37,573 bases of DNA, taken from an uncultured Planctomycetota bacterium. GTDB lineage: Bacteria; Planctomycetota; Phycisphaerae; Sedimentisphaerales; UBA12454. Positions 1 to 9,689 of this stretch are shown one piece after another (the stretch's first letter is position 1; every line of letters starts with the position of its first letter). Below the pieces are notes generated by a model that searched no databases, was not told the DNA's origin, and saw nothing but the letters and a program-made list of their open reading frames with translations. Location of the stretch: assembly GCA_903847315.1 (NCBI GenBank), contig CAINDG010000020.1:1-37573 (forward strand). The letters are read 5' to 3'. The position numbers and the translations under genes are program-made.

Positions 1-671
1 AACAATACATGTACAGTCTTTGATGATGCCGAATCGCTCATCATAAAAGCTGCGTCAATTTTCCCCTCAAGCAGAGCAGCTTGTGCCTCTTCATCGTCTA
101 TTTCCAGGAGAGTCGTCGAACCGCCCGGCTTAATGCCATTCAGGGCCAAAAGTTCTAATGCGAGCACTTGAGTTCCCGTGCCTTTTTCACCGATGGCTAA
201 TTTTTTGTCCGCAAATTGAGAGAGCAAATCAAGAGGTTTCTCACTGCGGTAGAATATAAGCAACGGCTCATAGGCAATGCTGCCCAGTGATATCAATTTG
301 CTGATATTTTGTCCTTTGGCCACTCCTGTTTGTACAAAACCGACATCAACCTTAAATGAAGGATTGTTCAGCCTTTCGAGATTTTCCAACGATCCCTCGG
401 ACTTCAGTATCTTTAGCTGAATACCATTGCGTGCCAGTATTTCGGCATACTTTTCAGCATATCTTTTAAAGCTGGTTCCGTCATCGCCACTGGAAAAGAT
501 AATAGTCTTTGGCGGAGCTGAACGAAAAAACCAGAACAAGGCAATGATTATAACGAGACCCATAAAAATTATGGCACTTAGCGATGCTACGGGGCCAATG
601 CCAAAAGTCTCGTTAAACATTTGCTGAATTCGTGAAAAACCAGCAGAATTGATTTTATTGTTTTCCGTCAT
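1..671 (-). CDS. TAXI/NMT1-type solute-binding protein of a TRAP transporter, C-terminus cut by window edge
   Basis: The minus-strand frame is open from the ATG at 671 to the window edge, about 223 codons. After a short polar N-terminus comes one strongly hydrophobic segment (about residues 28-45, ending in LFWFFRSA). A periplasmic-binding-protein-like region follows, with FSSGDDGTSFKRYAEKYAE, VDVGFVQTGVAKG, LAIGEKGTGTQVLALELL and GKIDAAFMMSD. The order GTSFKRYAE... then IGEKGTGTQ... resembles TAXI-type TRAP or NMT1-like binding proteins, which capture small carboxylates outside the membrane. The hydrophobic segment looks like an uncleaved anchor rather than a classical signal peptide. The permease is not in view. 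The gene lies 28 nt downstream of rpe on the same strand. Family assignment is moderately sure; the substrate is unknown. Confidence 0.68.
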   Translation of the reverse strand, partial: MTENNKINSAGFSRIQQMFNETFGIGPVASLSAIIFMGLVIIIALFWFFRSAPPKTIIFSSGDDGTSFKRYAEKYAEILARNGIQLKILKSEGSLENLERLNNPSFKVDVGFVQTGVAKGQNISKLISLGSIAYEPLLIFYRSEKPLDLLSQFADKKLAIGEKGTGTQVLALELLALNGIKPGGSTTLLEIDDEEAQAALLEGKIDAAFMMSDSASSKTVHVL

Positions 672-699
672 AATATTGATCCCTCATGGGGGTTAAGCA

Positions 700-1374
700 T
701 TATTTTACGCAGGCGTTGCGAATTGCCTCTATTGCTTTCGCTCTATCTGGTTTTCCGAAAATCGCATTTCCCGCCACGAGCGTATCTGCTCCTAATTCGG
801 TTACAATAGACGCGGTTTTGGAATCTATTCCTCCATCGACTTCAATCCTTATATCCGGCCCGACGATTTGCCGAATCGGCTTGATTTTATTAGCGGCCGC
901 CTGAATGAAACTCTGGCCGCCAAAGCCCGGATGAACCGTCATAACGAGAATCATATCCGCCAGATGCGCGTATTTTTCTATTTTTGATACAGGCGTTTCA
1001 GGATTTAAACACAGACCCGCCGAAATGCCCGCATCGTGTATTTTTTTTATAAGGTCAGCCGGATTGGGAGCAACTTCGATATGGAATGTGATATTATCGA
1101 CACCCGCCTTAATAAAGGCCTCTGCGTATTTGGCCGGTTCCATTATCATCAGGTGGCTGTCGAAAAATAGATTCGAATATTTTCGCAGTTTCTCGATGAC
1201 AGGGGGGCCGAAGGTTATATTCGGCACGAAATGCCCGTCCATAACGTCGAGGTGTACCATTTTCAGACCTGCTTTTTCGACCTGTCCGATTTCATCGGCA
1301 AGTTTGGCGAAGTCCGCACTCAATATCGATGGCGCGATTTCAATTGTTCCGACTTTTGGTAGTTTTCCAATCAT
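700..1374 (-). CDS. rpe: Ribulose-phosphate 3-epimerase
   Basis: This 224-residue protein has the usual length for the family. It interconverts ribulose 5-phosphate and xylulose 5-phosphate in the cytosolic pentose phosphate pathway. It is a (beta/alpha)8 barrel that reads APSILSADF near residue 14, then the metal and catalytic cluster HLDVMDGHFVPN (H41, D43), then DSHLM (H74), MTVHPGFGGQ, and EVDGGI with D180. All key metal ligands and catalytic aspartates are present. The ATG at 1374 lies directly behind a purine-rich, repetitive leader that probably includes the ribosome binding site. It is downstream of the DUF1646 transporter and upstream of the binding-protein gene on the same strand, but a shared function is not evident. 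Confidence 0.97.
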   Translation of the reverse strand: MIGKLPKVGTIEIAPSILSADFAKLADEIGQVEKAGLKMVHLDVMDGHFVPNITFGPPVIEKLRKYSNLFFDSHLMIMEPAKYAEAFIKAGVDNITFHIEVAPNPADLIKKIHDAGISAGLCLNPETPVSKIEKYAHLADMILVMTVHPGFGGQSFIQAAANKIKPIRQIVGPDIRIEVDGGIDSKTASIVTELGADTLVAGNAIFGKPDRAKAIEAIRNACVK

Positions 1375-6202: not shown

Positions 6203-6287
6203 TTGAAAAACTCCTTTAAAAATAAAGATTTATGGTTTTATTTGCAGCCATAAGGTTTTTTGAGAAAATCGTCTCATTATCTCAAGT

Positions 6288-6308
6288 GTTTTTGTACCTT
6301 TGTGGCTA
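6288..6308. repeat. Copy of the TTTGTGGCTA repeat family, left of the nuclease islet
   Basis: GTTTTTGTACCTTTGTGGCTA resembles the better copies at 8769-8792 and 8960-9035, on the other side of the nuclease islet. It is degenerate and non-coding. Confidence 0.45.
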
Positions 6309-6392
6309 TTAACAGGGTTTTATCCCGCCGCTGCTATAATTTTCGGAACGCCGATTTTAGGGATGGCGCCGGAAACTGTCAAGTAGATTATT

Positions 6393-6436
6393 TATCACGA
6401 ATTAACACGAATTTTAATCACAGATTACACGGATTT
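6393..6436. repeat. Degenerate ATTAACACGAATTT / CAGATTACACGG repeat
   Basis: This stretch contains CACGAATTAACACGAATTTT followed by AATCACAGATTACACGGATTT, a tandem of a roughly 15-base degenerate unit. Such sequence is familiar as intergenic filler in several bacterial genomes. A related run lies at 35681-35740 near the 5S gene. Confidence 0.5.
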
Positions 6437-6484
6437 ACCGAAGGCGGATAAATTTTTCAACAGACACAACGTCTCTTATTTATT

Positions 6485-7447
6485 CTAATTTAGTTTGTTT
6501 GATAAATCTGAGGGTATAATTTCAATGGTTTCTAAAATACCTCTTTTGGATGCAGACTCCTCGTATTGATATAAATCGACAATCACAAAAAAAATAGTTT
6601 TGTTATTATGTGAATAATATGGTGTATGGTGAGCCTTGTCTTCTAAAGAAAAGCTTAAACTTTCTTTACAAGTTTTAAAAATTATAAGATATCCAACAGA
6701 TTCATTGTAATCTACCGTATAAGTGTATAATTGATTAAAACCACTCAATATATAATCTTTTCCCTTCCCTTTTTGAGGATTGAATATTTTTGCATCAATT
6801 AACAAACGATCCTCTCCAATTTGTGATGATATTAAATCAATTTCCCCGGAAACTGAGCTAGGTTCTATATAATACTCTATGCCTTGATCGTATAAGTACT
6901 CGTAAAGATTTAATGCAAGGTTTTTTTCTCCTTTTTGAGTATCGTTCGTCCATAAATTAAAAAGGCTTTCACGTTTAAACCATTCTATCATTCTTTTATA
7001 TTTTTGTATTACTGACAGAATGGCACGAGCGTCATCAAGATGTTCATCCAAATAGTCGTAGAATGGTTCCAGAAAAATATCTTTAAATGATTCAAGAATA
7101 TTATTGAAGTTTGTCTCGTGACTATAGTGGTGGGCAATGTTCACCTCAATCATGTTGTCATCCGAATTGACACAGCGATTTAATACAAAGTAGCAAGCTG
7201 CTGCATTTTCCAATTCATTGTCAAACACAATAGCTTGTTCGGATGAAAATAGTTTTTCCACCTCTTTATCTATATGCCCCTTAGTCTTTTCTAATTCTTC
7301 TATGATACCAATAAATATTGGATAACTTTGTACAAATCCCCAGAATTGTTTTAAAGCATAATGAAATATTTGATAATCAGTGGAATTCAATCTTCGCACA
7401 CGTTTTTGTAATTTATAACGAAGCTGTTGTAACTGGTCATTTTTCAT
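6485..7447 (-). CDS. PD-(D/E)XK nuclease-like protein, third gene of the AT-rich islet
   Basis: This 320-residue protein has no family name that I recognise. The N-terminal 170 residues are helical and charged. Residues about 174-260 read like a PD-(D/E)XK nuclease core: a helix with E174/E183, then VSGEIDLISS (E202, D204), LLIDAKIF (D218, K220) and GFNQLYTYTVDY (Q239), then a hydrophobic strand VGYLIIFK. That order of acidic residue, D-x-K, then Gln helix is the family signature. The ATG follows AAAGGGA and lies 10 nt after the zinc-ribbon gene, so the three genes form an operon. Codon use is clearly more AT-rich than in gapA or pgk, which suggests transfer. DNA cleavage or defence is inferred only. 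Confidence 0.72.
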   Translation of the reverse strand: MKNDQLQQLRYKLQKRVRRLNSTDYQIFHYALKQFWGFVQSYPIFIGIIEELEKTKGHIDKEVEKLFSSEQAIVFDNELENAAACYFVLNRCVNSDDNMIEVNIAHHYSHETNFNNILESFKDIFLEPFYDYLDEHLDDARAILSVIQKYKRMIEWFKRESLFNLWTNDTQKGEKNLALNLYEYLYDQGIEYYIEPSSVSGEIDLISSQIGEDRLLIDAKIFNPQKGKGKDYILSGFNQLYTYTVDYNESVGYLIIFKTCKESLSFSLEDKAHHTPYYSHNNKTIFFVIVDLYQYEESASKRGILETIEIIPSDLSNKLN

Positions 7448-7457
7448 ATAATCCCTT

Positions 7458-7694
7458 TTAGATTTTTATATCAAATGATAAATCCCCTAAAGAATCTTCG
7501 AGTTTCTGTATAGCCTTCTTAATAGAACGAATTGCTTTTCTACATTCATTCATTTGGTCATCTAAGCAAATATTAATTTTGCATCCACGACAAATAATTA
7601 CGTCCCGTAAACGTGCTTGTTTTAAGTTAATAATATTATAAAAACCACATGCCGGGCACGCAAAATCAATATTTTGTCTGTCAAAATTTAACAT
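7458..7694 (-). CDS. Small zinc-ribbon protein of the islet
   Basis: This 78-residue protein starts with a two-knuckle zinc ribbon, CPAC (C13, C16) and CRGC (C35, C38). A charged helical tail follows (NECRKAIRSIKKAIQKLEDSL) that could form a short coiled coil. Small ribbon-plus-helix proteins of this kind often accompany nucleases or phage-related genes, but no function is established here. It is preceded by GAGGA about 10 nt before the ATG. It sits 44 nt after the HNH gene and 10 nt before the PD-(D/E)XK-like gene, all on one strand. The product may bind DNA or a partner protein; this is inference. Confidence 0.75.
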   Translation of the reverse strand: MLNFDRQNIDFACPACGFYNIINLKQARLRDVIICRGCKINICLDDQMNECRKAIRSIKKAIQKLEDSLGDLSFDIKI

Positions 7695-7738
7695 TACATA
7701 ATCTTCCTCTTGTGCGATGTACTCAAATTTTTAAAGTT

Positions 7739-8569
7739 TTAATTTTTCTCCCATTTTCTTATGTCATTCGTCCATCCTTCAACCAAACTTCTCCATTCCG
7801 ACCAATTATCTGCTTGTTTTGCCTGTGGTTCCATTTCCTTCTCTAAATCATTGATAATTTGCTGTTCTGTATACCCGTAATTTTTAAGAGCGATGACATA
7901 CTCATTCAAAATTATAGATCCCTTTTTATGATCCCAAAAGTTGAATCTATTCCGGCATATACCTTTGATATACGCTAATTTTTGGTCGATGGGGGGTCTA
8001 TTTTTTATGTTTAGAATTCCACCAATTTTTTTTATAAAATCTTCAACGCTATCTTTAATAAGGTTATCTGAAACGTCATATTTCAAATATTTTTTTGCTG
8101 AGATATCTATCGCCTCTAATATGTCTTGTAAATTAAATTTATTGATTAACTTTTCAATAGTTCTCTTTCCATTCTCATTTAAAGAAAATTTACCAATTTT
8201 ATTATCGATGTATTCGACAACTTGAGTTAATGTATCTTTTTGCAAATCTGTTAACGACTCTTGCCATTTAAACATTAATTCTATTTGTTCTCGTCTCTCT
8301 TGAACTTCTTCCATTTGCTTTCTTTGTTTTTGTAAAGCACTTTGGTCGTCTAGTTGAATATTGCTCTTACCTCGATTACATTCGTAACAACTTGTTGTGA
8401 AATTCAATATTCCATCGGCTCCTCCTTTGGATTTTGGATGTATGTGATCAACTTCCAGAATAACATCTGGTGCTTTTTTGCCACAATACTGACAAGTAAA
8501 CTTATCCCTCTTGAAAACCTCGAATCTTATCCTTTTGCTAATAGATTTTCGTTTGATTCCTTTCTTCAT
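7739..8569 (-). CDS. HNH endonuclease with long helical C-terminal region, first gene of the islet
   Basis: This 276-residue protein has an N-terminal HNH domain: CQYC (C26, C29), EVDHIHPKSKGG (D41, H42), the Asn-containing LNFTTSCYECNRGKSN (N56, C61, C64). The four cysteines bind a structural zinc and the DH pair is catalytic. A coiled, Gln/Glu-rich segment (about 75-100) follows, then a helical domain. Its stretch LAYIKGICRNRFNFWD resembles the YxxxIxxNW signature of DnaD-like and phage replisome proteins; that comparison is tentative. The ATG at 8569 has no good ribosome binding site. A 31-codon reading frame ends 6 nt upstream, so coupling is possible. The gene is AT-rich compared with its surroundings. 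DNA cleavage is likely; the target is unknown. Confidence 0.85.
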   Translation of the reverse strand: MKKGIKRKSISKRIRFEVFKRDKFTCQYCGKKAPDVILEVDHIHPKSKGGADGILNFTTSCYECNRGKSNIQLDDQSALQKQRKQMEEVQERREQIELMFKWQESLTDLQKDTLTQVVEYIDNKIGKFSLNENGKRTIEKLINKFNLQDILEAIDISAKKYLKYDVSDNLIKDSVEDFIKKIGGILNIKNRPPIDQKLAYIKGICRNRFNFWDHKKGSIILNEYVIALKNYGYTEQQIINDLEKEMEPQAKQADNWSEWRSLVEGWTNDIRKWEKN

Positions 8570-8768
8570 TGCCTATTACCATCCAAACGGAATTTCTCCT
8601 ACGCCAGTTTGTAGGCGATTTGTTCGTCTAAAATATCTTTGACGGTAAGCACTGTTTCGGATTTTTACCATATCTCGACAAATTATACCCCAGTTTTTTT
8701 CGGTTTCAAACAAATTCTGGTTGTTTTTGTCCAGTTTATTGTAAAACCAACTGCTTTATAATCGTTTC

Positions 8769-8792
8769 GTGTCTTAGTGCCTTTGTGGCTAC
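8769..8792. repeat. Copy of the TGCCTTTGTGGCTAC repeat family
   Basis: GTGTCTTAG followed by TGCCTTTGTGGCTAC matches the right arm of the inverted pair at 8960-9035 with one difference. It is non-coding and lies between the nuclease islet and the HNH-AP2 gene. Confidence 0.6.
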
Positions 8793-8959
8793 TTTTGTCG
8801 GGAATTTTTTGAAAAACGCGCAATTAATTTCCAGCGCTTTTTTAAAATCTCAAAAAATTTGCATCCTTTATTGACAAGGGTTTATGAAAAAAACGCCAAA
8901 ATTTTTGACGAATTTTCGCAAATATCGCGCAAGTTCTCAGTAAGTATGGAGGGCTATAT

Positions 8960-9035
8960 GTAGCCACCAAGACACGAAGTCACGAAGAAAAAAGATATAT
9001 TTTAAAATTTGGTGTCTTGGTGCCTTTGTGGCTAC
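8960..9035. repeat. Inverted pair of the TGCCTTTGTGGCTAC repeat
   Basis: The left arm begins GTAGCCACCAAGACAC and the right arm is GTGTCTTGG plus TGCCTTTGTGGCTAC. The right arm pairs with the left except for one extra 8-9 base unit (GGTGCCTTT). The pair could fold into a hairpin of about 76 nt. The right arm runs to 12 nt before the HNH-AP2 start codon, and its translation creates a spurious N-terminal extension of that frame. Confidence 0.65.
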
Positions 9036-9047
9036 GTCAATTTAACT

Positions 9048-9689
9048 ATGTCAAAATTAAATCTACAAATCCCAATTCCGGCATTCATCGAAAGCATCGT
9101 TGTTTATTTTCTCCTTCGCTATCGCAAAAAACACTTCGGCTATGCCTTTCGAAAAATAAAACTTAACAAAGGCAAATATGCCATCGTTTCCCCCGAAGAT
9201 TACGCCAAATTATCCGAATACGATTGGCAATATGTTGAAAACAAAAGTAAAAATCGTTACGGAGCCCGTATTGACGACGGAAAAATAATATATATGCACA
9301 GGCAGATTATGAATGCTCCTAAAGGCACTCCCATTGACCATAAAGACCACAACGGCCTGAACAACACAAGAGAAAACCTGAGATTGGCAACTATCTCGGA
9401 AAACGCCAGGAATTGCGAAAAAACAAAAAGGCCCACAAGCTCAAAATACAAAGGTGTCTGTTGGAATAAAAAAAGCAAAAAATGGCAGGCGCATATACAC
9501 TATAACGGAATAAGTATACATCTGGGTCTTTTTGACAGCGAGGAAGATGCTGCAAAGGCGTATGACGAGGCCGCGAAAATTTATCACGGCGAGTTCGCCG
9601 TGCTGAACTTTCCCGAGGTTTTAGTGAAGGCGGGCGGCAAAAATACGCTCTTGCGGAAAATACTGGGCCGATGTAAACTGATATTATGA
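9048..9689 (+). CDS. HNH endonuclease with AP2 DNA-binding domain
   Basis: This 213-residue protein resembles free-standing homing-endonuclease-type proteins. After a basic, hydrophobic N-terminus, residues 35-65 (RKIKLNKGKYAIVSPEDY...) form the usual lead-in. The HNH_3-type core follows, with MHRQIMNAPKGTPIDHKDHNGL (H84, D97, H98, H101) and N105/N110 in LNNTRENLRLAT. The AP2 domain spans about 133-190: YKGVCWNKKSKKWQAHI, then GLFDSEEDAAKAYDEAA, then GEFAVLNFP. The start chosen is the ATG at 9048, because an earlier in-frame start at 9009 lies inside an intergenic repeat. No clear ribosome binding site is visible. A selfish or DNA-nicking role is likely from the family. Confidence 0.88.
   Translation: MSKLNLQIPIPAFIESIVVYFLLRYRKKHFGYAFRKIKLNKGKYAIVSPEDYAKLSEYDWQYVENKSKNRYGARIDDGKIIYMHRQIMNAPKGTPIDHKDHNGLNNTRENLRLATISENARNCEKTKRPTSSKYKGVCWNKKSKKWQAHIHYNGISIHLGLFDSEEDAAKAYDEAAKIYHGEFAVLNFPEVLVKAGGKNTLLRKILGRCKLIL

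Follow-up and report, generated by a model that had tools for sequence, protein, structure and literature searches.

What does the AT-rich islet upstream of gapA in an uncultured Planctomycetota bacterium encode, and do its three co-directional genes act as one system? An earlier note, made from the letters alone, had read the islet as a mobile, defence- or restriction-like trio of an HNH nuclease, a small zinc-ribbon protein and a PD-(D/E)XK-like nuclease. We re-analysed it within the window, by which we mean the whole stretch of 37,573 nucleotides (contig CAINDG010000020.1). The three ORFs are all intact on the minus strand and, as described there, closely spaced, with a gap of 44 nt between the HNH and ribbon genes and of 10 nt between the ribbon and nuclease genes. 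The features are as follows.

6383 to 9008, no strand: AT-rich segment, missing upstream of gapA in relatives.
6485 to 7447, minus strand: nuclease-like effector gene, 320 aa, with an N-domain and a predicted PD-(D/E)XK domain.
7448 to 7457, minus strand: 10-nt spacer from the ribbon stop to the effector start, with a AAAGGGAT-type ribosome-binding site.
7458 to 7694, minus strand: ribbon gene, 78 aa, the conserved partner directly upstream of the 320-aa effector gene.
7739 to 8569, minus strand: HNH gene, 276 aa (PF01844, PHROG 16986), a co-directional neighbour outside the conserved pair.
9009 to 9689, plus strand: ORF of an AP2 and HNH_3 homing-type endonuclease (PF00847, PF13392; PHROG 99, 147 bits).

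Composition analysis revealed that the islet genes have a GC content of 0.30-0.32 and a GC3 of 0.23-0.29, compared to a GC of 0.448 for the whole window and a GC3 of 0.52-0.54 for the pgk, gapA, DUF3795 and amidohydrolase genes. Nowhere else is the window as rich in AT: all other stretches as long as the islet have a GC of at least 0.418, which bears out the contrast with the flanking genes noticed before. In relatives from the same family and genus, DNA similarity upstream of gapA ends at or before about position 6383 of the window, and in one genus-mate (G005) the region from gapA to the amidohydrolase gene spans only about 1.6 kb with zero islet genes in between. Given this similarity break and the islet-free locus, the AT-rich segment behaves as an insertion, in keeping with the mobile character first suspected.

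Several further elements lie at its far end. The AP2-HNH endonuclease ORF, which the earlier note left out, sits between the trio and the DUF3795 gene and has a GC of 0.42. The intergenic stretch at 8752-9040 contains an element of about 150 bp (about 8803-8957), of which six further copies with 81-88% identity are found in the same genome. It also contains a repeat of about 30 nt, GTGTCTTAGTGCCTTTGTGGCTAC, present in roughly 25 copies genome-wide and located in addition at 6282, 8961 (minus strand) and 9008. Imperfect 28-nt direct copies of this genome-wide repeat lie at 6282-6309, outside the AT-rich segment, and at 8765-8792, inside its far end.

The HNH assignment is confirmed by its profile, as the protein matches PF01844 at 52.4 bits against a cut-off of 21.4. 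It also matches PHROG 16986 over its full length (229 bits) and shares 41% identity over 92% with gp1 of Pseudomonas phage JBD44. The gene of JBD44 gp1 is located directly upstream of the phage replication initiation gene, and Escherichia phage Louie has the same layout; in temperate phages, members of the HNH family adjoin replication-initiation genes. In the window, by contrast, the HNH gene stands alone beside the other two genes, and a genus-mate (G006) carries an HNH homologue elsewhere in its genome without the ribbon and nuclease pair. The three genes are indeed co-directional, closely spaced and equally low in GC, which is what a single three-gene system, as first proposed, would look like. 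However, a tblastn search at E<=1 found zero HNH homologues in any other nuclease-carrying locus, and relatives of the HNH gene adjoin phage replication-initiation genes or, in the genus-mate, occur without the pair. The trio as a unit was ruled out on this ground, and we regard a three-gene system as extremely improbable. The HNH gene is most readily understood as a separate passenger, putatively of phage origin and unrelated to the other two genes.

Recurrence in other genomes had been put forward by the earlier note as one test of its proposal: the trio recurs in none of the other loci with the nuclease, but the ribbon and nuclease pair does recur. The nuclease has homologues in MAGs of Omnitrophota (L007, 55% identity) and a Deltaproteobacterium (L008, 56%), in its own phylum (L011, L012 and L048, 43-46%), on a Polaromonas plasmid (L002, 41%), in cyanobacteria (L009, L010, L043 and L044 at 39-41%; L045 partial) and on actinobacterial plasmids (L003-L006, 20-26%). 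In six of these loci (L002, L007, L008, L011, L012 and L048), a ribbon homologue is encoded immediately 5' of the nuclease gene, at distances of -4 to +11 nt, and a weak ribbon match likewise precedes the nuclease homologue on a Streptomyces plasmid (L003). Across seven pair loci, the pairwise identities of ribbon and nuclease are correlated (r 0.85, permutation p 0.0006). Moreover, both strong ribbon matches in a sample of 294 genomes of the phylum, those of the window and of G331, adjoin the nuclease. The conserved unit is the ribbon and nuclease pair, and its two members are inherited jointly. For four full-length homologues from cyanobacteria and three from Streptomyces/Kitasatospora, no ribbon gene could be recognised next to the nuclease; the partnership is thus not universal, and the ribbon is not always required.

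The 320-aa nuclease is rare and patchy, with one to a few members per 200-400 genomes sampled, and wider sampling added few. Its closest relatives (55-57%) belong to other phyla, compared to only 43-46% within its own phylum; with its nearest relatives outside the phylum, the pair spreads horizontally between unrelated bacteria. The idea that phages or viruses carry the nuclease was considered and dropped, with zero matches among phage records and in two IMG/VR scans.

The ribbon protein displays the arrangement C13-x2-C16 ... C35-x2-C38 followed by a long C-terminal helix (residues 45-75). Its seven homologues share all four cysteines, an RxRDxIICRGCK-like core and the long helix, so the small zinc-ribbon partner of the earlier reading holds. 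The predicted model (pLDDT 83) has a four-strand ribbon in addition to helix 45-75, with the two CxxC knuckles in the β-ribbon, and zinc binding is predicted. The nearest solved folds are the LysW carriers, with an RMSD of 1.2 Å over 39 residues and a Z score of only 4.0, a likeness that marks the model as a small zinc ribbon and no more.

The 320-aa effector can be divided into a helical N-domain (residues 1-138), a long helix (140-168) and a nuclease domain (residues ~170-300). By sequence, the protein matched no Pfam, NCBIfam or solved-structure family and gave no convincing PHROG match; haemagglutinin coiled coils found with phmmer (E 0.004) were put down to helix artefacts. A match came from the PADLOC profile PDC-M14B (46 bits, E 1.3e-12), which aligns residues 3-137 with positions 5-141 of its 261, leaving the C-terminal half unmatched. 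Consistently, hhalign against four PDC-M14B proteins covered residues 6-138 with a probability of 95 and a score of 63.9, whereas 40 column-shuffled controls scored at most 19.6. At the level of these profile comparisons, the N-domain of the effector is homologous to that of PDC-M14B.

PDC-M14 is an unvalidated candidate in PADLOC. PDCs in general are mostly unvalidated candidates derived from guilt-by-embedding (PMC12988326), and two tested PDCs showed no activity in the native host (PMC12409345). Like the window pair, PDC-M14 has two genes, the zinc ribbon coming first, and its B protein starts with the same helical domain of ~130 residues. In three cyanobacterial genomes and one Lysinibacillus plasmid, each PDC-M14B gene is preceded by a zinc-ribbon gene of 144-149 aa matching PDC-M14A at 148-178 bits; in the window, too, a zinc-ribbon gene lies directly upstream of the gene with the N-domain. 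The two differ in the rest. PDC-M14B ends in a GNN-repeat-like, helical or hydrophobic tail (classified by eye in those loci), whereas the window effector ends in a predicted PD-(D/E)XK nuclease. The window ribbon is half the size of PDC-M14A and has one ribbon, and neither it nor its homologues match the PDC-M14A profile; with hhalign reaching a probability of only 12-25% over 13 residues, homology of the window ribbon to PDC-M14A could not be shown. Since the PDC-M14B C-termini are not nucleases, the window pair combines the PDC-M14 layout and a homologous N-domain with another effector, and, lacking a PDC-M14A match, it is not a strict PDC-M14 member by the PADLOC definition. The earlier note, which knew of no named system with such a composition, was therefore nearly right: PDC-M14 shares the ribbon-then-B layout and the N-domain, but not the nuclease. 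Overall, the nuclease-armed ribbon pair looks like an undescribed relative of a candidate defence system.

A small gene placed first, genes that overlap or lie only a few nucleotides apart, a sporadic distribution and plasmid carriage are also what a toxin-antitoxin module would display, in which the upstream ribbon would be the antitoxin or repressor of a nuclease toxin, the module would be self-maintaining and defence would be incidental. We consider this rather unlikely, for in cyanobacteria, homologues that keep the motif intact occur with no ribbon gene, and the N-domain is common to PDC-M14B proteins, whose C-termini are not nucleases.

As to the C-terminal half of the effector, the GEIDLI, DAK and glutamine read earlier in the third protein are present as described. 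The residues D204, D218-x-K220 and Q239 are invariant in 14 homologues, down to 20% identity, and E174 is invariant as well; D204, D218 and K220 thus make up the D ... (D/E)-x-K motif of PD-(D/E)XK enzymes. The AlphaFold model of the protein has a mean pLDDT of 83, with the segment 196-212, which holds the strand of D204, below 50. In a structural comparison of residues 139-310, most of the chains that VIA-align superposed on this half belong to PD-(D/E)XK enzymes of many families. The top neighbours are OkrAI (Z 6.6; 5.1 Å over 132 residues) and McrC (Z 6.4; 5.2 Å over 126 residues), followed by EcoT38I (5.1), Ecl18kI (4.9), PspGI (4.7), Shedu (4.6), EcoRII (4.6) and HamA (3.9), all structural Z scores of the effector being below 8. 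Foldseek found no match of the model at E<=0.001 in the PDB or viral libraries. With McrC, Shedu SduA, Hachiman HamA, OkrAI, EcoT38I and Ecl18kI, the effector would share its predicted α/β core, and it has the D ... D-x-K ... Q pattern in common with them. However, sequence comparison ties the effector to no Pfam, NCBIfam or solved-structure family, and it differs from these enzymes in its N-terminal domain and its partner. Motif and weak but consistent fold match together make it likely, but not proven, that residues 170-300 are a PD-(D/E)XK nuclease, as the earlier note had supposed. In homologues of intermediate distance, the N-domain retains 28-37% identity compared to ~50% in the nuclease domain; this faster divergence fits an N-domain that would be the sensing part under pressure to change.

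The neighbourhoods scanned for defence genes were those of the window, L002, L003, L033, L046, L047 and L048, leaving aside L034, a short contig. In the Deltaproteobacterial groundwater MAG (L047, 1792-12316), the pair is flanked on one side by NsnA-NsnB-NsnC, which we take to be Menshen, and on the other by a type III-like methyltransferase and then IetA-IetS; the Menshen and IetAS systems are both complete, and the whole forms a dense defence island. A GajB-like helicase and ZacB/ZacA-like genes are found close to the pair on the Polaromonas plasmid (L002), and PDC-M30A- and PDC-S31-like genes close to that on the Streptomyces plasmid (L003). Clear defence neighbours were found neither in the window nor in the Omnitrophota locus or two loci of the same phylum (L033, L046 and L048 scanned), and L046 has one marginal PycTM match among its neighbours. 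Defence neighbours at three of seven loci, a count with no measured background, are suggestive. The defence-like character proposed earlier thus finds an echo in some homologous loci, and a defence function of the pair is what we infer.

Two other roles have to be weighed against these contexts. The pair might be a restriction-like nuclease, either modification-dependent or of type II without a partner, with the ribbon aiding DNA recognition; McrC and type II enzymes are among the fold neighbours, and an N6/N4 methyltransferase adjoins the L047 pair. We hold this to be improbable, as the L047 methyltransferase abuts IetA-IetS, and neither a methyltransferase nor an McrB-like GTPase is found with the pair in the window, in the 12.8 kb covered of the Polaromonas plasmid L002, in L046 or in L048. 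The loci with no defence neighbours would agree with a nuclease for DNA repair or plasmid maintenance that has no defence role. Such a role seems very improbable for a gene so rare and patchy that moves horizontally and whose pair in one locus adjoins Menshen and IetAS.

Taking the conserved pair and its joint inheritance with the N-domain homology to PDC-M14B, the catalytic motif, the fold matches and some defence-island neighbours, we think it probable that the pair is a horizontally moving defence module of two genes, a nuclease-armed variant of the PDC-M14-like kind. We propose that the ribbon protein and the N-terminal helical domain would form the sensing or regulatory half, a layout in common with PDC-M14, possibly as a complex. 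Infection would act as the trigger that releases or assembles the C-terminal PD-(D/E)XK effector domain. Once infection is sensed, this domain would cut DNA, whether of the phage, the host or both, and the outcome would be protective. The HNH gene, a separate passenger, would have no part in the process.

Ribbons resembling PDC-M14A also occur in other company. On Curtobacterium and Kocuria plasmids (L063 2105-3456, L064 2151-3468), such a ribbon is paired with a CAP12-type TIR protein matching PF10137 at 90-92 bits, and on haloarchaeal plasmids (L066 2000-3459, L067 2000-3459), the ribbon gene immediately follows one whose product has a PDC-S05-like C-terminus. On plasmids of Phaeobacter and Miltoncostaea (L062 2968-3966, L065 2935-3969), a PDC-M14A-like double zinc ribbon is fused to a helical C-terminal part. 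Beside PDC-M14AB in L052, a divergent 153-aa gene (362-820, minus strand) has a GNN-repeat part and a tail that both match PDC-M14B in its C-terminal half, as though the effector half had a gene to itself.

A ribbon partner with exchangeable effectors suggests a modular family. Only tentatively would we extend this to a wide modular immune family headed by zinc-ribbon adaptors, in which the swapped effectors would be PD-(D/E)XK nucleases, hydrophobic or GNN-repeat tails, TIR and PDC-S05-like domains. If true, this modular ribbon family would have in the window pair its first described branch armed with a nuclease. PDC-M14, known only from profile models, would gain a branch whose effector lends itself to a direct assay, that of DNA cleavage, and a layout of ribbon and adaptor domain with swappable effectors would open the part played by the ribbon to tests across effector types.
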